From an uncultured Anaeromyxobacter sp. (GTDB taxonomy: Bacteria > Myxococcota > Myxococcia > Myxococcales > Anaeromyxobacteraceae), in NCBI GenBank assembly GCA_903855945.1, contig CAIOAK010000177.1, forward strand, positions 64,086 to 128,085: a stretch of DNA of 64,000 nucleotides, in the 5' to 3' direction. Position numbers and translations under genes: made by a program. Positions 5,605-49,418 of the stretch are shown here, piece after piece. How positions within the stretch are numbered: position 1 is the stretch's first letter; every line of letters starts with the position of its first letter. Below the pieces are notes generated by a model. The model had not been told where the DNA came from. It saw nothing but the letters and a program-made list of their open reading frames with translations, and ran no database searches.

Positions 5605-7839
5605 ATGCCCTTCGCCGACAAGCCACCCGACCCGCTGGCCCCCGCGCGAGCCGCCTTCATCGCGCCGGAGACCCGCTGGTACGTGCCCCCGGGCCCTTTC
5701 CTGCTCGAGTCGGGCGCTCGGCTCCCGCGGCTCCAGGTGGCCTTCCGCACCTGGGGGCGGCTCTCGCCCGCGGGCGACAACGCCGTGGTGGTCTGCCACG
5801 CCTTCACCGGCTCGGCCGACGCGGACCGGTGGTGGACCCGGATGTTCGGGCCGGGGAGGGCGCTCGACCCGGAGCGAGACTTCATCGTCTGCTCCAACAT
5901 CCTGGGGAGTTGCTACGGCACCACGGGCCCTGCGTCGATCGACCCGGCCACCGGGAGCCCGTACCTGGGCTCGTTTCCTCTCGTCACCGTCCGTGACATG
6001 GTCCGGGTGCAGGGCGAGCTGGCCCGCGCGCTCGGGATTCGCCGCATCCGGTCGGTGGTGGGCGGCTCGCTCGGCGGGATGCAGGTGCTCGAGTGGGCGC
6101 TGCTCTTCCCCGACCTCGTCACCTCCATCGTCCCGATCGCCAGCTCGGCGCGTCACTCCGCGTGGGCCATCGGCCTGTCCGAGGCGCAGCGGCAGGCGAT
6201 CGCCGCCGACCCCCGCTGGGCGGGCGGGCGCTACGACCCCGCCGATCCCCCGGCAGCCGGCCTGGCCGCGGCCCGGATGATGGCGATGTGCACCTACCGG
6301 GGCTGGGAGAGCTTCGAGGAGCGGTACGGCCGGAGACCCCAGTCGGCCGACCTCTTCGCCATGGAGAGCTACCTGCGGTACCAGGGGCAGCAGCTCGTGG
6401 GGCGCTTCGACGCTGCCACCTACTTCGTGCTCACCCGCGCCATGGACACACACGACGTCGCTCGCGGCCGGGGCGACTTCGAGGAGGTGCTCCGGAGCAT
6501 CCGGCAGCCGGCGCTGGTCGTCACCGTGGACACCGACGTCCTCTACGTTCCCGAGGAGCAGCGGATCATGGCGCGCCACATGCCCGCCGCGCGTCTGGAG
6601 CCGCTGCCGTCGCCGCACGGGCACGACGCCTTCCTCATCCACGTGGACGAGCTCTCGACGCTGGTGGCCGGATTCCGGGAGCGGGTCGAGGGGCGGGCCG
6701 CATCGCGCCCCGTGGCGAGGCCGGCCTCCGGCGGGCAGGGGGTCTCCCTCCTCGTGCTCGGCAAGGGGAAGGTGGGATCGCCGCTCCTCGATCAGGTGCG
6801 GGACCAGGCCGCCAGCCTCTCCTCCGACTACGACATCGCACTCCGCGTCGTCGGAGTGGGAGACCGGCGCGGACTCGCCTTCGACGACCACGGACTCGAC
6901 CTCTCCCGGTGGAGGGACGAGCTCGCGTCGGCGCCTCCGACGGGCCCCTTCCACATTCCCGGTTCGGGAGAGGTCCTCGACCGGCTGGCGCGCCTGCCCG
7001 GTCCGGTCCTCGTGGACATCACCGCCGACCCGGCGCTGCTCCCGGTCTACGAGGAGGCCTTCCGGCGCGGGATCCACGTGGTCGGTGCGAACAAGCTCCC
7101 GCTCGCGTCCTCGATGGTGGACCGGGACCGGCTCTCGGCGGCGCGGCGACAGGCGCACGTGCGCTTCCACTACGAGACCTCGGTCGGCGCGAGCCTGCCC
7201 CTGCTCGGCACGCTCCGCAACCTGGTGCGCACCGGCGACCGGGTCCTCGCCGTGGAGGGTTCGCTCTCGGGAACCGTCTGCTACCTGCTCGGGGAGGCCG
7301 AGAAGGGCACGCCGCTCTCCATGGCGCTCCGCTGGGCCCGGGAGCTCGGATACACGGAGGAGGATCCGCGCGACGACCTCTCCGGACTCGATTCCGCCCG
7401 GAAGGCCGTGATCCTGGCCCGCGAGCTGGGGATGCGGGTCGAGGTGGACGACGTGATCCTCGAGCCGCTCGTCCCGCCGGAGCTACTCCCCTCCTCCGAC
7501 CCCAGCGCGCTGGTCGGCTCGCTGCGCGGGCTCGATCGGGAGTTCGCGGCCCGGGTGGAGGGCGCGCGTGCGCGCGGAAAGGTTCTCCGCTACCTGGTGC
7601 GCGTGGACGTGGACGCGGGGCGCATCCGCGTCGGACCGGTCGAGGTGGGGCCCGAACACCGCGCCGCCGGGCTGCGCGAGGTGGAGGCCTACGTGGCGGC
7701 GACGACGGTTCGCCGCTCCGGCTCGCCGCTCGTGGTGCAGGGCGCAGGCGTCGGCGGGGCGCTCACCGCGGGCGGCATCCTCACCGACGTCCTGCGCGTG
7801 GCCTCGTCGCTGGGCGTGCGCACCGGCTGGAGCGGGTAG
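5605..7839 (+). CDS. Fusion: homoserine O-acetyltransferase (MetX) - homoserine dehydrogenase
   Basis: 744 residues with two full-length enzymes joined head to tail. Residues about 15-365 are a MetX-type alpha/beta hydrolase: [14 protein letters not shown], nucleophile S155 in GGSLGGMQ, Asp in [13 protein letters not shown] and His in HGHDAFL. Residues about 380-744 are homoserine dehydrogenase: Rossmann motif [46 protein letters not shown], the signature with [15 protein letters not shown], and no ACT regulatory domain. The dehydrogenase makes homoserine from aspartate semialdehyde and MetX acetylates it for methionine synthesis, so one chain performs consecutive steps in reverse order along the polypeptide. 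No frameshift or internal start signal separates the halves. Acetyl versus succinyl donor cannot be settled by eye. Confidence 0.9.
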
Positions 7840-7880
7840 CGCGGCTTCGTGCTAATGCAGGTGGGGGAGGAGAGCCGCGC

Positions 7881-9335
7881 ATGTCCGCTTCACCGCTGCC
7901 CATCGCAAAAGGGGAGCAACTCCTGTCGCTCCTGCCGGGGATGGCCAACCGGCACGGCCTGGTGGCCGGAGCCACCGGGACCGGAAAGACCGTCACCCTC
8001 CGCGTGCTGGCGGAGCGACTCTCCCGCGCCGGAGTCCCGGTATTCCTGGCCGACGTGAAGGGTGACCTGTCGGGCCTCGCCCTCGCCGCGGAGCCGGACG
8101 AGCGCATGCGGGAACGGGCCGCAAAGCTCGGGGCCACCATCGATCCGGCCGGCGCCCCGGTGGTCTTCTGGGACGTCTTCGGGCAGCAGGGGCACCCGCT
8201 GCGGGCCACCGTCTCCGAGCTCGGTCCGGTCCTGCTCGGCCGCATGCTCGATCTGAACGAGGTCCAGGAGGGCGTTCTCGCGCTCGCCTTCCAGCTCGCC
8301 GACGACGAGGGGCTGCTCCTGCTCGACCTGAAGGACCTGCGCGCGGTGCTGCAGCACGTCGCCGAGAGGGCCGCCGAGTTGCAGAGGACCCACGGCAACG
8401 TCTCCTCCGCCAGCGTGGGAGCCATCCAGCGGCAGCTCCTCGCGCTCGAGCAGCAGGGGGGCGACCAGTTCTTCGGCGAGCCGGCGCTCGACCTCGACGA
8501 CCTCCTCGCCGTGGACGGTCGGGGCGAGGGGATCGTGAACGTCCTCGCGGCCGACAAGCTGCTCCTCGCGCCGCGCCTCTACGCCACGTTCCTCCTCTGG
8601 CTGCTCTCCGAGCTCTACGAGCGGCTGCCGGAGGTGGGAGATCCGGAGAAGCCCAGGCTCGTCTTCTTCTTCGACGAGGCGCACCTGCTCTTCCGGGACG
8701 CCCCGCGGGCCCTGCTCGAGAAGGTGGAGCAGGTCGTGCGGCTCGTGCGATCCAAGGGGGTGGGCGTCTACCTCGTCACCCAGAACCCGCTCGACGTTCC
8801 CGATGCGGTGCTCGGGCAGCTCGGCAACCGGGTGCAGCACGCGCTGCGCGCCTTCACGCCCCGCGACCAGAAGGCGGTCCGCACCGCCGCCGAGACCTTC
8901 CGGCCGAACCCGCGCGTGGACGCGGTCACCGCCATCACCCAGCTCGAGGTGGGCGAGGCGCTGGTGTCGCTGCTCGATGCGAAGGGGACACCGGTGCCCG
9001 TGGAGCGGGCCTTCGTGCTGCCTCCCCGATCCCGTCTCGCGCCCCTCTCCCCCGACGAGCGGAAGCGGGTGATGAAGGCCTCGCCGGTGAAGGGGAAGTA
9101 CGACGAGCCGATCGACCGGGAATCGGCCTACGAGCGGCTCCAGGCACGGACGGCGGAGCGAACCTCCCAGGAGGCGCCGCGGGCGCGCGGGCGTGCTTCG
9201 GAGCCTCGCAGCGAGCTCGCCGAGACGCTCGGTGCCATGGCGAAGAGCGTCGCGCGCTCGGCGGGAACCCAGATCGGCCGTGAGCTCGTCCGTGGCGTGC
9301 TGGGTGGCCTGTTCGGCACGAGCCGGCGGCGATGA
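7881..9335 (+). CDS. HerA-like ATPase, DUF853 family
   Basis: 484 residues from ATG 7881, preceded by GGGGGAGGA. HerA/FtsK-superfamily ATPase with Walker [20 protein letters not shown] after the second strand, Walker [13 protein letters not shown], sensor segment YLVTQNP and a basic, flexible tail. This is the DUF853 group (E. coli YjgR-like), often described as a helicase of unknown role. No NurA-type nuclease is nearby, so a HerA-NurA repair complex is not supported. Its stop overlaps the start of the DUF523-DUF1722 gene (ATGA). Confidence 0.82.
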
Positions 9336-42947: not shown

Positions 42948-44522
42948 ATGCGACTTCCCGACGGGCGCGAGGTGCCGGACCTGCACGTCGCCCCGGACGT
43001 CGCGGCCCGGTGCCGCGAGCTGGCGCACCGGGTGACCGGCGAGGTGATGTCCTTCGTCGATCGGCACACCACGGTCTCGATCGAGCGCACCGTCCTCCGG
43101 CAGCTCGGGTTCCACGACGCGGGACCGCGCGGGATCCCGCTGGTGAACCTCATGGTGGACGCGCTCCAGGAGCGCGGGCTCCTGGGGATGGGTGCGGCCT
43201 GGTGGTACGGATGGGCGCTTCGTCAGGGTGCGAGCGATCCCTTGCAGGTGGTCGAGCGCATCACCGCCCTCCCGCGCGACCCGGCGCCGCTCCCGGAGGG
43301 GGAGGCGGCCCGGCTGCGCGACGAGGTCCGGGCCGAGGTCCGGGCCTCCGCGGAGGATCTGCGCCGCCGCATCGAGCGGAGGGATGCGCTCCGGATCGAG
43401 CTCGGCATGGGCCCTCGGCCCCACCGCTACCTCATCGTCGCCACCGGCAACATCCACGACGACGTGGAGCAGGCCCGGGCCGCGGCGCAGGCGGGGGCCG
43501 ACGTGATCGCCGTGATCCGGAGCACCGCCCAGTCGCTCCTCGACTACGTGCCGCACGGCGCCACCACCGAGGGCTACGGCGGAACCTACGCGACCCAGGA
43601 GAACTTCCGGATCATGCGGGAGGCGCTCGACGACCAGTCGCGCAAGCTGGGGCGCTACGTCATGCTCACGAACTACGCGTCGGGGCTCTGCATGGGCGAG
43701 ATCGCCTACGCCGCCTCCTGGGAGCGGCTCGACATGCTCCTGAACGACGCGATGTACGGGATCCTCTTCCGCGACATCAACATGAAGCGGACCCTCTGCG
43801 ACCAGCACTTCTCCCGGCGCATCACCGCCTTCGCCGACGTGATCATCAACACCGGCGAGGACAACTACATCACCACCGCCGACGCCGACGAGGCGGCCCA
43901 CACCGTCATCGCGAGCCAGTTCGTGAACGAGTCCTTCGCCCATCGGGCCGGGCTCCCCGACCGGCTCATCGGGCTCGGGCACAGCTTCGAGATCGATCCG
44001 TCCCGGGAGGACACCATCGCCCGGGAGATGGCCCAGGCGCTGCTCGTCCGGACGCTCTTCCCGGAGGCCCCCGTGAAGTACATGCCCCCCACGAAGCACA
44101 AGACCGGGGACATCTTCTTCAGCCACGCCTACGACGTGATGGCCGACGTGGTGGGGCAGGTGACCGGGCAGTCGATCCAGCTCCTCGGCATGATGACCGA
44201 GGCGATGCACAACCCCTTGCTCATGGACCGCTTCGTGGCACTCCAGGCCTCGAGCTACGTGTCCCGCGCCTGGCGCTCCATGGGCGGGGAGCTCCAGTTC
44301 CGTCCGGGCGGCCTCGTCGAGCGTCGCGCCGCGGAGACGCTCGGCCGGGCGCTCGGCCTCCTCGAGGAGGTGGCGCAGGAGGGGCTCTTCGCCGCCATCG
44401 GCAAGGGGCGGTTCGGGGACGTGTCGCGCCGGGAGGATGGCGGGAAAGGTCTCGGTGGGGTGGTGGAGCGGGCGCCCGGCTACTTCAATCCCTTCCTCGA
44501 CCTGCTGGAGGGGCGGCCGTGA
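42948..44522 (+). CDS. kamD: Lysine 5,6-aminomutase alpha subunit
   Basis: 524 residues. Match to the adenosylcobalamin- and PLP-dependent aminomutase that moves the terminal amino group of beta-lysine (or D-lysine) to carbon 5. Seen: DRHTTVSIERTVLRQLG near the start, ATGNIHDDVEQARAAAQAGAD, GYGGTYATQENFRIMREAL, MLTNYASGLCMGEIAYAA and PPTKHKTGDIFFSHAYD, all typical of KamD. The length is as in clostridial KamD (516). The first gene of kamD-kamE-kal-kce; GTGA overlap with kamE. Ornithine 4,5-aminomutase is a relative but has a different gene layout. Confidence 0.93.
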   Translation: MRLPDGREVPDLHVAPDVAARCRELAHRVTGEVMSFVDRHTTVSIERTVLRQLGFHDAGPRGIPLVNLMVDALQERGLLGMGAAWWYGWALRQGASDPLQVVERITALPRDPAPLPEGEAARLRDEVRAEVRASAEDLRRRIERRDALRIELGMGPRPHRYLIVATGNIHDDVEQARAAAQAGADVIAVIRSTAQSLLDYVPHGATTEGYGGTYATQENFRIMREALDDQSRKLGRYVMLTNYASGLCMGEIAYAASWERLDMLLNDAMYGILFRDINMKRTLCDQHFSRRITAFADVIINTGEDNYITTADADEAAHTVIASQFVNESFAHRAGLPDRLIGLGHSFEIDPSREDTIAREMAQALLVRTLFPEAPVKYMPPTKHKTGDIFFSHAYDVMADVVGQVTGQSIQLLGMMTEAMHNPLLMDRFVALQASSYVSRAWRSMGGELQFRPGGLVERRAAETLGRALGLLEEVAQEGLFAAIGKGRFGDVSRREDGGKGLGGVVERAPGYFNPFLDLLEGRP

Positions 44523-45295
44523 CGCCGGAGCGCACGCCGGAGCTGGTCCGGCCCTACGGCGACCGGAGGGACGACGGCGTGGTGCAGCTCTCCTTCGTGC
44601 TGCCGGTGACTCCCGGGGAGAGGGCGCGCGAGGCGGCCACCCGGATCGCCCAGAAGATGGGGCTCTCCGGCGTGCTCGTGGCCTCGATGGAGGCGGCCGC
44701 CGAGGGCTACACCTTCTTCGTCCTCTACGGGCGCACCGACGCGGCGGTGGACGTCGCCGCCATCGAGGTGCCCGAGGTGAAGGTGCGCAAGCGGGGCTTC
44801 GACGAGCTGAACGCGCTCGCGTCCCGTTCGCTCGGGCGGCGCATCGTGGTCCTGGGCGCCTGCACCGGCACCGACGCCCATGCGGTGGGCATCGACGCCA
44901 TCATGAACATGAAGGGCTTCGCCGGGGACTACGGCCTGGAGCGCTATCCGGCCCTCGACGCGCGGAACCTGGGTTCGCAGGTGGAGAACGGGGCGCTGGC
45001 CCGGGCCTGCCGGGACGCGTCGGCCGACGCCGTTCTCGTCTCGCAGGTGGTGACCCAGCGGGACGTCCACAAGGAGAATGCCCGGGCCTTCCTTCTCGAG
45101 CTCGAGAAGCTCGGCATCCGCGATCGGATCGTGGCGGTGCTGGGCGGTCCGCGCATCGACCACCGGCTCGCGCTGGAGCTCGGGTACGACGCAGGGTTCG
45201 GTCCGGGAACCCGGCCGTCCGACGTGGCCAACTACATCGTGGGGCGCGTGCTGGAGCGCGAGGGCAAGAGCCCCCGGGAGGCGAGCGATGGCTGA
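44519..45295 (+). CDS. kamE: Lysine 5,6-aminomutase beta subunit
   Basis: 258 residues from GTG 44519. Cobalamin-binding motif D119-A-H121-x2-G124 (base-off/His-on B12) followed by K132 in MNMKGFAG, which aligns with the PLP-binding Lys144 of clostridial KamE. The Rossmann-like B12 domain continues ([36 protein letters not shown]). The N-terminal dimerisation part is present. It overlaps kamD (GTGA) and the kal start. Confidence 0.94.
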
Positions 45296-45683
45296 TGGAG
45301 TTCTCATCCGGGTGCGGATGTCCCAGGCCGATGCCCACTACGGCGGCGATCTGGTGGACGGGGCGCGCCTGCTGCAGCTCTTCGGCGACGTGGCCACCGA
45401 ACTTCTCGTCCGGCACGACGGGGACGAGGGGCTCTTCCGGGCCTACGACTCCGTCGAGTTCCTCGCGCCGGTCCGTGCGGGGGATTACGTGGAGGCCACC
45501 GGCGAGATCACGCGGGTGGGGAGCACCTCGCGGGCGATGCGCTTCGAGGCCCGCAAGGTGATCGTCCCTCGCCGCGACCTGAACGACAGCGCGGCCGACC
45601 TGCTGGCCGAGTCGGTCGTGGTGTGCCGGGCCACCGGAACCTGCGTGGTCCAGCGGGAGAGGCAGCGGCGCGTGCGCGGGTAG
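45288..45683 (+). CDS. kal: 3-aminobutyryl-CoA ammonia-lyase (hotdog fold)
   Basis: 131 residues from ATG 45288, with GGGAG seven bases upstream. Thioesterase-like hotdog protein with [20 protein letters not shown]. In lysine fermentation Kal converts L-3-aminobutyryl-CoA to crotonyl-CoA and ammonia. The identity rests on sequence pattern plus its place between kamE and kce. It overlaps the kamE end by eight bases. Confidence 0.87.
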
Positions 45684-45696
45684 GGGGAGGACGAGA

Positions 45697-46539
45697 ATGG
45701 GGGACAGAGCCATCGTCACCTGCGCGGTCGTGGGCGCCGAGGTGACCCGGGAGCAGAGCCCGGCCATCCCGTACACACCCGAGGAGATCGCACGGGCCTC
45801 GGTCGCGGCCTGGCGGGCGGGAGCGTCGGTGGTCCACCTCCACGCGCGCCACCCCGATGGCCGTCCATCCCAGAGCGCCGAGCACTTCCGGGAGATCGTC
45901 GATCGGATCCGTTCGGCGGGCTCCGACGTGGTGATCCAGTGTTCCACCGGGGGTGCGGTCGGCATGTCGGTGGACGAGAGGCTCGGGTCGCTGGTGGCCG
46001 GGGCCGAGATGGCCACCCTGAATCTCGGGACGCTCAACTTCGGTGACCAGGTCTTCGTGAACTCCCGCCCCGACATCGTCCGCATCGCGGGGCGGATCCG
46101 GGAGAAGGGGCTCGTGGCGGAGTGCGAGATCTACGACGCCGGGATGCTCGAGACGCTGCGATGGCTGCGCGAGAAGGGGCACCTGGCCGAGCCCTACCAC
46201 CTCCAGTTCGTGCTCGGCGTGCCCGGAGGGATGTCCGGAACGGAGCGGAACCTTCGCTTCCTCGTGGAGGGGATGCCCGAGCCGGCCCACTGGACGGTGG
46301 CGGGGATCGGCCGATTCGAGATGCCGATGGCCGAGCTCTCGTTGAAGATGGGCGGCCACGTCCGCGTGGGGCTCGAGGACAACCTCCACGTCGCGAAGGG
46401 GGTCCTGGCGAAGGGAAACGAGGAGCTCGTCGCGGCCGCCGTGGCGCGGGTCCAGGCATCCGGGCGGTCGCTCGCCACGCCCGCGGAGGCCCGTGCCATC
46501 CTGGGGATCGGGATCGGGAAGACCCGGAGGACGGAATGA
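45697..46539 (+). CDS. kce: 3-keto-5-aminohexanoate cleavage enzyme
   Basis: 280 residues of the BKACE (DUF849) family. Zinc ligands in VVHLHARHPDG and the Glu in RVGLEDNLHVAKG match Kce, which condenses 3-keto-5-aminohexanoate with acetyl-CoA to give acetoacetate and 3-aminobutyryl-CoA. IQCSTGGAVGMSVDERL is also typical. BKACE enzymes vary in substrate, but the kamDE-kal context makes Kce by far the best call. It is coupled to the next gene by ATGA. Confidence 0.92.
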   Translation: MGDRAIVTCAVVGAEVTREQSPAIPYTPEEIARASVAAWRAGASVVHLHARHPDGRPSQSAEHFREIVDRIRSAGSDVVIQCSTGGAVGMSVDERLGSLVAGAEMATLNLGTLNFGDQVFVNSRPDIVRIAGRIREKGLVAECEIYDAGMLETLRWLREKGHLAEPYHLQFVLGVPGGMSGTERNLRFLVEGMPEPAHWTVAGIGRFEMPMAELSLKMGGHVRVGLEDNLHVAKGVLAKGNEELVAAAVARVQASGRSLATPAEARAILGIGIGKTRRTE

Positions 46540-47021
46540 GCCTGAAGGACTGGGTGGCGCGCTTCCGGACGCAGCACGAGCTGGCGAGGGGCGGAAAGCT
46601 CTCCGGTGACTCGTTGACGGCCTACCGGGCCATGCGGGACGAGCTCGCCCGCGCATTGCTGGGCGCCCAGACGGCCTCGCTCCGGTCGGGGGAGGTGCCG
46701 CGGCAGGTGCTCCGCGTCGCGCGCGCGCTGCAGGCCGACCTGGAGTGGAGCGTGGACCGGGCGCGGGCCGTCACCCAGGAGATCTCCGCGGGAGGCTTCT
46801 CCGCGCTTCTCGCGAAGGCGCCGCCCACCGACGAGGAGGTGAAGGTGAAGCTCCGCCTTCCGGGGGTGGAATCGGTGGCGGGGCTCGCCCGGGTGGTGGG
46901 CGTCGTGGTCCAGCCCTCGGTGGTGCGCGTCTCCTTCGCCTTCCAGGGGCTGTCGGACGCCGAGCGGGAGCGGGTCGAGATCGCGGTCTTCGACACGGTC
47001 CTGCAGAACATCCAGCTATGA
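46536..47021 (+). CDS. Unknown protein, possibly PilZ-like, last gene of the kam operon
   Basis: 161 residues. A helical N-terminus (KDWVARFRTQHELARGGKLS; basic) precedes a beta-rich C-terminal part (VKVKLRLPGVESVAGLARVVG, VVRVSFAFQGLSDAERERVEIAVFD). The pattern FxFxxLSxAERxRxExxxFD at the end recalls PilZ domains. The c-di-GMP-binding RxxxR and D/NxSxxG motifs are absent, so if PilZ it is a non-binding type. The ATG overlaps the kce stop. Confidence 0.5.
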   Translation: MSLKDWVARFRTQHELARGGKLSGDSLTAYRAMRDELARALLGAQTASLRSGEVPRQVLRVARALQADLEWSVDRARAVTQEISAGGFSALLAKAPPTDEEVKVKLRLPGVESVAGLARVVGVVVQPSVVRVSFAFQGLSDAERERVEIAVFDTVLQNIQL

Positions 47022-47082: not shown

Positions 47083-47916
47083 TCAGGACTTGGCCGGCTC
47101 GGCCGGTGCGGGCGCCTTGGGCGCCTGACCGAAGTCGATGTCGATGTCGAGCTGGACCGACCACATCATGTTGGAGAAGCCGGGCTGCGAGTACTTGTTG
47201 AGGAAGAAGACCGGCCCGGTGAGGATGTCGATGGAGGGGGTGAAGTAGATGCCGATGCCCGCGGCGGCGGCGCTGTAGGCGTTGTTGCCCGTCTGGATGT
47301 CGGCGAAGAAGTTGATCTTGTTCAGACCCTTCAGGCCGAGCTCGATGTCCGGCGAGATGTAGGAACCGATGAAGCCGGCGCGGCCCAGGGTGACGGGCGC
47401 GTCCGGGTTGGACCAGTCGCTCCAGATCAGGTCGGAACCGCCCGCTCCGTAGTATCCACCGACGGTGAGGGTGCCGAAGAAGAAGCCCTTCCCGATCTCG
47501 GCGTGCAGGATGTCGAACTGCGTGGCCTGGTTGGTGCCGACGCCGTAGATGCCGAGCGAGATGCCCGGGAACCACTCACCGAAGGCTCCCTCGGTGAGGC
47601 CGACCTTGGCGTTGAACTGGAGTGCGCCGGCCGGGGAGAGGAAGGCCGCGTTCTGAGCGCCCCAGTACGGGAGGAAGGCGTCGATCCCCACCTCGGCCTG
47701 GATCTTCTCCCAGGGCAGGATGCCCATGGTGAGGCCGAGATCCATCGGGTAGTTGGCCTTGTCGTTGAAGTACGTGTCGTACGTGATGTGCGGGATCAGG
47801 TACGGCTGGACGTAGGTCGTCGCCGGCGTCCAGAACAGGGTGGACGGAGTGGCCCAGGCACCCTGCGCGAAGAGCGCGATGGCACAGGCGGCGAGGACTC
47901 GGACGATCTTCTTCAT
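47083..47916 (-). CDS. Secreted beta-barrel outer-membrane protein beside amtB
   Basis: 277 residues from ATG 47916 (GGGAG upstream). Clear signal peptide (KKIVRVLAACAIALFAQGAWA) and a body of alternating amphipathic beta strands rich in Gly, Tyr and Phe (for example YLIPHITYDTYF, GISLGIYGVG, KINFFADIQTG, IGIYFTPSIDIL), ending in a Pro/Ala tail. This suggests an outer-membrane barrel or porin of no recognised family. A strong sigma-54-type promoter lies 56 bases upstream, as for amtB, so it is probably nitrogen regulated. The terminal Phe expected of many barrels is replaced by a soluble tail. Confidence 0.75.
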   Translation of the reverse strand: MKKIVRVLAACAIALFAQGAWATPSTLFWTPATTYVQPYLIPHITYDTYFNDKANYPMDLGLTMGILPWEKIQAEVGIDAFLPYWGAQNAAFLSPAGALQFNAKVGLTEGAFGEWFPGISLGIYGVGTNQATQFDILHAEIGKGFFFGTLTVGGYYGAGGSDLIWSDWSNPDAPVTLGRAGFIGSYISPDIELGLKGLNKINFFADIQTGNNAYSAAAAGIGIYFTPSIDILTGPVFFLNKYSQPGFSNMMWSVQLDIDIDFGQAPKAPAPAEPAKS

Positions 47917-47971
47917 CGGTGGTCTCCCTGTCGTGTAGTTCGCGGAAGGCGAACCGGATGTTCCGGGGTAT

Positions 47972-47988
47972 TGCACTCCCCGTGCCGA
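47972..47988 (-). promoter_or_regulatory. Sigma-54 (-24/-12) promoter of the outer-membrane protein gene
   Basis: Minus strand reads TCGGCACG-GGGA-GTGCA against the consensus YTGGCACG-N4-TTGCA; both invariant doublets (GG and GC) are present at the right spacing. The transcript would start near 47960, 44 bases before the ATG. Confidence 0.7.
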
Positions 47989-48036
47989 GGCGCCGAGGCC
48001 GGAAATCGTCGAGGGATCCAGGGGCTGGAAGCGAAA

Positions 48037-48077
48037 CTGCGCGCCGGCCGGGCAGGTCCTGCCCCGGAGGCGCGCAG
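48037..48077 (-). terminator. Two-tier hairpin after amtB
   Basis: Outer arms CTGCGCGCC (48037-48045) and GGCGCGCAG (48069-48077) enclose an inner perfect palindrome GGGCAGG-T-CCTGCCC (48050-48064). It starts 20 bases after the amtB stop and is upstream of the next promoter. It is followed by TTTC rather than a long T-run. A likely terminator. Confidence 0.55.
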
Positions 48078-48097
48078 CGGGTGACGCGAGGAGGGCG

Positions 48098-49363
48098 CTA
48101 TCCGGCGTGGGCCGGGCCGCCCGAGGAGGAATCGAACTCGGTGTGGATGTAGCCGCGCTCGCCGCTCTCCGACGCGTCCATCCCGGTCCACTCGTCCTGC
48201 TCGTCGGCGCGGAGCGGGAAGACGAATCCGACCAGCTTGTAGAGGACGAAGGAGAGACTTCCGGACCAGACCATCGTGACGGCAACCCCCACCGCCTGCC
48301 ATCCGAGCAGGGAGAGGCTGGCGTCGGCGCCGTCGGGGTTCACGAGCTTCGTGGCGAAGACGCCGGTGAGGAGGGCGCCGAGGGTGGCGGCGACCCCGTG
48401 GACCGCGAAGACGTCGAGGGAATCGTCGATCCCGAGGCGAGGGCGGTAGCGGACCGCGAGGAGCGAGGCGAGGCCGGCGAGCGCCCCGATGACGAGCGAC
48501 GCACCCGGGGTGACGAACCCGCAGGCGGGCGTGATGGCGACGAGCCCCGCCACCGCGCCCGACGCGAGGCCGACGCCGGACATCTTGCCGTGGAAGAAGA
48601 AGAGCTCGGCCAGTCCCCACGCGGCGGCCGCCGCGGCCGGAGCGAAGAAGGTGTTGGCGAAGGCGTACGCTGCGAGGCCGTTGGCGGCGAGGGCCGACCC
48701 CCCGTTGAATCCGAGCCAGCCGAACCAGAGCATGCCCGCCCCCAGGATCACGAAGGGGACGTTGTGGGGCAGCACCGTGGGGGAGCGCAGGCCGCGCCGC
48801 TTGCCGAGCAGGAGCGCGCCGACGATCGCCGCCGACGCCGCGTTGATGTGGACCACGGTGCCGCCGGCGAAGTCGAGCACCCCGCGGGCGCGCAGCCAGC
48901 CCCCCGGCGCCCAGACCCAGTGGGCCACCGGCGTGTAGACGATGAGGCTCCAGAGGACGACGAAGAGCACGAACGCCTTCACCCGGATGCGTTCCACGAG
49001 CGCTCCGGAGATGAGGGCCGGGGTGATGACCGCGAACATCCCCTGGAAGAGCATGAACGCCACGTGGGGGATGGTCGGGGCGAGGTCCTTCTGGACCTCC
49101 GCGCCCACCCCGCGCATGCCGAACCAGTGGGCGCCGCCCAGGAAGAAGTCGAACGTGCCGGGCGAGAAGGAGAGGCTGTAGCCGAGGAGGGCCCAGAGCA
49201 CGCCCACCACCGCCATGCAGACGATGGAGAGGATCATGGTGTGGACGACGTTCTTGGCGCGGACGAGGCCGCCGTAGAAGAAGGCGAGGCCCGGGGTCAT
49301 GAACATGACGAGGCCGGCGCAGATGAGGACGAAGGCGGTGTCGCCCGAGTTGATCGGATTCAC
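48098..49363 (-). CDS. amtB: Ammonium transporter AmtB
   Basis: 421 residues from a GTG start with GGAGG eight bases upstream. Eleven membrane helices; NSGDTAFVLICAGLVMFMTPGLAFFYGGL at the N-terminus, gate Phe region LFQGMFAVITPALISG, pore histidines in FAGGTVVHINA and FAVHGVAATLGALLTGVFA. The cytoplasmic tail ESGERGYIHTEF resembles the E-H-G-E-x-A/GY GlnK-docking tail. It takes up ammonium when nitrogen is scarce. A sigma-54 promoter precedes it. glnK, the usual partner, is absent nearby; an outer-membrane protein takes its place. Confidence 0.95.
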   Translation of the reverse strand: MNPINSGDTAFVLICAGLVMFMTPGLAFFYGGLVRAKNVVHTMILSIVCMAVVGVLWALLGYSLSFSPGTFDFFLGGAHWFGMRGVGAEVQKDLAPTIPHVAFMLFQGMFAVITPALISGALVERIRVKAFVLFVVLWSLIVYTPVAHWVWAPGGWLRARGVLDFAGGTVVHINAASAAIVGALLLGKRRGLRSPTVLPHNVPFVILGAGMLWFGWLGFNGGSALAANGLAAYAFANTFFAPAAAAAAWGLAELFFFHGKMSGVGLASGAVAGLVAITPACGFVTPGASLVIGALAGLASLLAVRYRPRLGIDDSLDVFAVHGVAATLGALLTGVFATKLVNPDGADASLSLLGWQAVGVAVTMVWSGSLSFVLYKLVGFVFPLRADEQDEWTGMDASESGERGYIHTEFDSSSGGPAHAG

Positions 49364-49401
49364 GCGGAATTCCTCCGGGGAGGGTGGGTGCCCGAAAGGA
49401 G

Positions 49402-49418
49402 TGCAGGCCGCGTGCCGG
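49402..49418 (-). promoter_or_regulatory. Sigma-54 (-24/-12) promoter of amtB
   Basis: Minus strand reads CCGGCACG-CGGC-CTGCA against YTGGCACG-N4-TTGCA; only the T of -26 and the first T of the -12 box differ. The expected transcript start near 49391 leaves a 28-base leader with a GGAGG ribosome-binding site. Confidence 0.72.

Follow-up and report, generated by a model that had tools for sequence, protein, structure and literature searches.

The locus at positions 47083-49418 of the stretch of DNA studied here (the window, 64 kb of contig CAIOAK010000177.1 from an uncultured Anaeromyxobacter sp.) raises the question why a gene for a secreted beta-barrel protein stands beside an ammonium channel gene, each with a sigma-54-type promoter element of its own. 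Translation of the barrel gene (47083-47916, minus strand; ATG at 47916, stop codon at 47083-47085) gave a secreted protein of 277 amino acids with the signal peptide MKKIVRVLAACAIALFAQGAWA. The gene lies directly downstream of amtB (48098-49363, minus strand; GTG start, 421 amino acids), separated from it by an intergenic gap of 181 bp. This gap holds the −24/−12 element CGGCACGGGGAGTGCA (47972-47987, minus strand), 55 bp 5′ of the ATG, and the matching element of amtB, CGGCACGCGGCCTGCA (49402-49417, minus strand), is located 38 bp 5′ of its GTG. Both genes and both elements were found where an earlier reading of the letters without database searches (the sequence-only reading) had placed them. 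The answer favoured here, with moderate confidence, is that the barrel forms an outer-membrane channel for NH4+ (and K+) which is induced through sigma-54 and works with an inner-membrane transporter.

Both window elements show the GG and GC doublets at the fixed spacing of sigma-54 promoters, with near-consensus flanks. A motif match without position was no evidence in itself, since a scan of the GC-rich 64-kb window with three mismatches to the consensus allowed returned 70 matches versus 62 by chance, and the strict motif was counted 12 times in the whole genome, as was its reversed-pattern control (12). What counts for the two elements is how closely they match the consensus, where they stand and how well they are conserved. 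Within the window, the strict pattern YGGCACG-N5-TGCA is confined to these two sites (0.14 expected), a number reached in 1 of 100 shuffles. Conservation in relatives, proposed as a check by the sequence-only reading, was assessed in 16 Anaeromyxobacteraceae loci, one per species and with near-copies excluded. The family pattern NGGCAYG-N4-STGCA was found 28 times in these loci against 0.65 expected, and every site lies immediately 5′ of one of the two genes, amtB or the barrel gene. The barrel gene keeps its upstream element in nearly all of them, with variation in the N4 spacer and in the distance to the start codon. In L043 and L045, from two species, only about 100 bp separate the barrel start from amtB and the barrel gene has lost its own element, which fits co-transcription of the two genes there. 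The gene for sigma-54, rpoN, was identified in the window's own genome (TIGR02395, E 2.7e-129) and, this genome included, in 25 of the 27 barrel-bearing genomes tested.

Homologues were sought by the sequence of the barrel alone, which makes their neighbours an unbiased test of linkage. They were found in 28 of 195 genomes of the phylum Myxococcota and also in other phyla, where their occurrence is patchy: 8 of 388 Verrucomicrobiota genomes sampled, 11 of 396 from Acidobacteriota (where some of the matches are very weak) and 23 of 74 from Margulisbacteria. For part of the genomes in these samples the phylum was deduced from the named genome around which the search was made. Within the Anaeromyxobacteraceae, amtB adjoins the barrel gene in 18 of the 19 loci with enough flanking sequence. 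Outside this family at least 35 loci from at least seven phyla have an amt gene adjacent to the barrel or within about 3 kb of it, mostly together with glnK. Such loci belong to the Myxococcota (L070, L082, L105), Nitrospirota (L085), Acidobacteriota (L182), Calescibacteriota-type genomes (L093, L094, L096), Kiritimatiellota (L099), Lentisphaerota (L098), Verrucomicrobiota (L097, L176-L179) and Margulisbacteria (WOR-1/Saganbacteria; L100, L102, L192-L204, L207, L209-L211). The gene orders are diverse (barrel-amt-PII, amt-PII-barrel, amt-barrel-PII and divergent) and the amt subtypes differ. With one to three amt genes per genome, the probability of chance adjacency was roughly estimated at less than 1/100. 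Counted among these loci is L091, where barrel and amt stand side by side on a contig of a metagenome-assembled genome (MAG) labelled Micrococcales; with an outer-membrane barrel on it, this contig is probably mis-binned or mislabelled.

Promoter-like elements accompany the linkage in these phyla as well. In Margulisbacteria the barrel gene usually comes first in its operon and commonly has a TGGCA..TTGCT element 40-200 bp ahead of the conserved domain; in L099 TGGCACGAATCGTGCT is found 66 bp upstream of the start of the barrel gene. Where amt is the first gene (L070, L098, L105, L176), it is preceded by an element matching at 10-11 of 12 positions, the chance of a 10/12 match in a random 300-bp window being 0.018. 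Other nitrogen genes were found beside the barrel too, in the order glnA-barrel in L083 and L084, with TGGCACCCCCGTTGCA right where the open glnA frame begins, and barrel-glnD-glnB in L089 and L090. A BBP2-type porin gene is located immediately upstream of the barrel and glnD-glnB in L089 (4707-5924). In L182 a secreted protein without a match (7060-7929; ..GVDVPSVYVFRG..) is encoded between barrel and glnD and may be another outer-membrane protein of the same cluster of nitrogen genes. Anaeromyxobacter oryzae and A. oryzisoli (L054 and L055) carry, in addition, a divergent paralogue of the barrel with about 36% identity, which is not linked to amt.

It could be argued that the adjacency of barrel and amtB is inherited synteny only and that the promoter matches are accidental. 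The order kamD, BKACE, PilZ, barrel, amtB, TPR, tilS is indeed kept as a whole in the Anaeromyxobacteraceae loci, and loose consensus matches were at chance level. Such an explanation is already contradicted by the position of all 28 strict sites at one of the two genes and by the recurrence of the linkage in unrelated surroundings and gene orders across the phyla, and it deserves almost no credence.

The partner gene in the window is, by its sequence, a canonical member of the AmtB/Amt family. Its product matched TIGR00836 over the full length (424 bits, cut-off 343) and likewise PF00909 (E 3.6e-115). In an alignment to E. coli AmtB (1xqe) the Phe gate, W148, D160, H168, F215, S219 and H318 are kept, numbered as in the established AmtB literature, and so are the twin His and the NH4+ recruitment residues. 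No glnK was found beside amtB or the barrel gene at this locus; elsewhere in the window's genome, on other contigs, P-II is encoded twice, and the genome has a second amt, 39% identical to the first and also preceded by a −24/−12 element. Near-consensus −24/−12 elements were also observed 5′ of both P-II genes (L065 at about 6414 and L066 at about 491, both on the minus strand). The local absence of glnK had been read correctly from the letters. The accompanying suggestion, that the barrel holds the place of glnK, was rejected because many relatives carry both; barrel, amt and glnK stand in one operon in many other lineages. Beside the barrel gene, the window also holds lysine-fermentation genes (lysine 5,6-aminomutase and 3-keto-5-aminohexanoate cleavage enzyme) and a gene for a PilZ protein (42948-47021), whose position is conserved in the Anaeromyxobacteraceae.

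A second, rarer context of the barrel is potassium uptake. In the Verrucomicrobiota locus L175 (G523:C2, 1762-11326) the gene order is kdpA-kdpB-kdpC-barrel-x-kdpD-kdpE, and the same genome has another copy of the barrel in an amt-glnK-barrel arrangement (L177). In L104, from Acidobacteriota, the barrel precedes kdpABC. In L184 (632-7754), also from Acidobacteriota, it lies beside several KdpE-like response regulators, a KdpD-like kinase and a KimA-like carrier, of which the nearest solved relative is the potassium importer KimA (PDB 6s3k, E 4e-55); this region looks like a potassium-homeostasis island. A maximum-likelihood tree requires the barrel to have switched between nitrogen and potassium partners on at least two separate occasions. 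In size and charge NH4+ and K+ are almost the same, and a shared substrate class is therefore the simplest reading of the two contexts. A strict −24/−12 match was also seen in L108 (G000:C15:225812-225826), 166 bp upstream of a gene recognised by eye, from its sequence, as that of a Kup-type potassium transporter; it may be due to chance, and it fits the potassium theme.

These contexts bear on the view that the barrel is a pore for another nutrient taken up in nitrogen starvation, such as amino acids, urea, polyamines or nitrate/nitrite, and is merely co-regulated with amtB. Operons under sigma-54 or nitrogen control often carry several transporters, and in L102 genes for a formate/nitrite transporter and a nitrite/sulfite reductase also adjoin the barrel. 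What stays constant from phylum to phylum is the partnership with amt and P-II and not one with other transporters, and the kdp and KimA contexts point to K+, which resembles NH4+ in size and charge and is unlike any of these nutrients. The potassium contexts weaken the amino-acid pore in particular, and such a substrate is considered unlikely.

The barrel was searched against Pfam, NCBIfam and the PDB sequences as a single sequence and as alignments of 25 and 33 members, and no match was obtained, in agreement with the earlier statement that it is of no known family. No description of the family was found in literature searches of open-access papers. The family, as yet uncurated, is presumably of a familiar general type, in which an outer-membrane channel is paired with an inner-membrane transporter. 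AlphaFold2 modelling from the 33-member alignment, the check that the sequence-only reading had called for, predicted a barrel of 12 transmembrane strands (predicted local distance difference test score 85.7, predicted template modelling (TM) score 0.79). The signal peptide, the even number of strands, the alternating polar and apolar faces and a C-terminal aromatic beta-signal, which ends in ..QLDINVPF in the members without a C-terminal tail, are those of outer-membrane beta-barrels. All Foldseek matches were outer-membrane or designed transmembrane barrels (intimin/invasin, a designed 12-stranded barrel, FapF, NanC, PcoB, OmpLA and OmpF). In the models, the general class of outer-membrane barrel is clear and a specific relative is not.

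Several known families were considered, and most of them were set aside. A general diffusion porin of the 16-stranded trimeric OmpF/OmpC type is ruled out by the 12 strands and the lack of a profile match, and membership of OmpW by the number of strands (12 versus 8) and the lack of a Pfam match. The BBP2/OmpL-like porins (PF07642) gave no profile match with the window barrel. The COG4313 channel 4rl8 aligned with the first model only, at a TM-score of 0.37-0.46; it was not among the matches listed for the better model and gave no profile match. The TorF family of putative porins (Gcw_chp, PF09694) is presumably a neighbour of glnK-amtB in proteobacteria. None of the 33 barrel members matched its profile at E<1, and PF09694 was absent from 189 Myxococcota genomes. 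At four plasmid amt loci no neighbouring porin was found.

The interior face of the barrel was assigned from strand alternation and polarity, not from coordinates. On this assignment the invariant polar residues of the strands (H43, D47, Y49, E75, D79, N102, K104, D206, Q255 and D257) are all predicted to point inward, and the predicted interior has 6-9 acidic versus 2-4 basic residues in every member. Such an acidic interior fits a narrow cation pathway, and it would also fit a closed barrel with an internal salt-bridge network. The protein could be closed or serve a structural role during nitrogen (or potassium) limitation, as a sensor, an anchor or a remodeller of the envelope in the outer membrane: the conserved polar network is dense and includes K104 and H43, as in closed barrels, and intimin/invasin anchors are among the closest folds. 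The barrel nevertheless pairs repeatedly with transporters and not with signalling genes, its interior is net acidic, and the mature protein is essentially the barrel alone without an extra domain. The potassium contexts weaken a nitrogen sensor further, and a closed barrel is regarded as rather improbable, on a par with the pore for another nutrient. 'Pore or sensor' had been the conjecture of the sequence-only reading; the acidic, conserved interior and the potassium contexts favour a cation pore.

A pore without ion preference was weighed on the same features. A general small-solute porin would raise the permeability of the outer membrane under starvation, as might be expected from the induction of a Kuenenia BBP2 porin on ammonium limitation (PMC7438415) and from the BBP2-type gene upstream of the barrel in L089. 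The 12 strands and the invariant acidic interior argue for a narrow and selective pore, though, and the transporter partners found are limited to NH4+ and K+ systems, so that this explanation is held to be quite unlikely.

A number of observations weigh against a dedicated cation channel that is partnered with Amt. One Anaeromyxobacteraceae locus, L042, is the exception to the linkage, with 3.6 kb of upstream sequence and no amtB. No nitrogen or potassium gene lies near the barrel homologue in L087, L092, L095, L107 and L185, and Amt was not detected in three barrel-bearing genomes, which may be incomplete MAGs. The TM-scores of the Foldseek matches, normalised to the query, were at most 0.47 and none of the matches was a functional one. 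The predicted 12-stranded barrel may be closed, given the dense network of polar residues inside it. A simple scan for NtrC enhancer sites near either promoter returned nothing convincing. Small cations, finally, also pass general porins, so that a dedicated channel may not be needed.

The NH4+/K+ channel nonetheless accounts best for the evidence in our view, and would work as follows. In nitrogen starvation, RNA polymerase with sigma-54 would transcribe amtB, and the barrel gene would be transcribed from its own matching sigma-54 promoter, so that scarcity of the ion would lead to synthesis of both the channel and the inner-membrane transporter. The barrel would form a narrow 12-stranded channel with an acidic interior that favours small monovalent cations. 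NH4+, or K+ in relatives, would cross the outer membrane through it and reach the inner-membrane partner, which is AmtB in the window and KdpFABC or a KimA-like carrier in a few relatives. We infer conduction and selectivity from interior charge and gene context, and induction in nitrogen starvation is likewise presumed. The observation of the sequence-only reading was thus confirmed, and is stronger than could be known from the letters. Its interpretation was right in its core and is partly supported: promoters and linkage bear out a sigma-54-controlled barrel made with the ammonium channel, and its assignment to NtrC was not borne out by the enhancer scan. Of the refuting outcomes that it had named, neither a lack of promoter conservation in relatives nor a lack of linkage to amt elsewhere was observed. 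NtrC would be one candidate activator, and other sigma-54 activators are possible.

Whether the same holds for the family at large, an unnamed barrel family in at least seven phyla serving as a dedicated NH4+/K+ channel in tandem with Amt under sigma-54 and repeatedly recruited to K+ uptake operons, is put at about even chances. Work on ammonium uptake has dealt almost exclusively with the inner membrane, and entry across the outer one is assumed as a matter of course. If the proposal is true, this entry would be a controlled step by way of a conserved, co-regulated partner of Amt, and bacteria would build matched outer-membrane entry for the simplest monovalent cations. It would also give a name to an uncurated protein family, and through its swaps between Amt and Kdp or KimA partners the family itself provides a means of testing for a common NH4+/K+ selectivity. 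Anaeromyxobacter species fix nitrogen and reduce metals in paddy soils and sediments, where scavenging and retention of ammonium matter.

Among the nearest known systems is the glnK-amtB operon of E. coli, which is under NtrC and sigma-54. The window amtB shares the gating residues and a −24/−12 promoter with it, and differs in its partner, a barrel with a −24/−12 promoter of its own and no adjacent glnK. OmpW of Caulobacter resembles the window barrel as a small outer-membrane barrel proposed to admit small cations, and differs in having 8 strands and belonging to another family; we know of no tie between OmpW and amt operons. In Caulobacter crescentus, OmpW is a narrow cation channel with a conductance for monovalent ions that is maximal for NH4+ and K+ (PMC4659666). 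The BBP2 porin gene KSMBR1_3177 of Kuenenia, an anammox bacterium, is strongly induced by ammonium limitation and its product was proposed to admit ammonium (PMC7438415); unlike the window barrel it is of the PF07642 (BBP2/OmpL-like) family. By analogy, both precedents support the plausibility of the proposal, not membership of their families. No dedicated pair of outer- and inner-membrane proteins is known to us for NH4+ or K+. The pairs of LamB for maltose, NanC for sialic acid and PcoB for copper differ from the one proposed here in their substrates, which would be NH4+/K+ in this case, and no sequence relation to the barrel was found. NanC and PcoB are among its 12-stranded fold matches, and in all three systems, as proposed for the barrel and amtB, the gene of an induced outer-membrane channel stands beside that of its cognate inner-membrane transporter.

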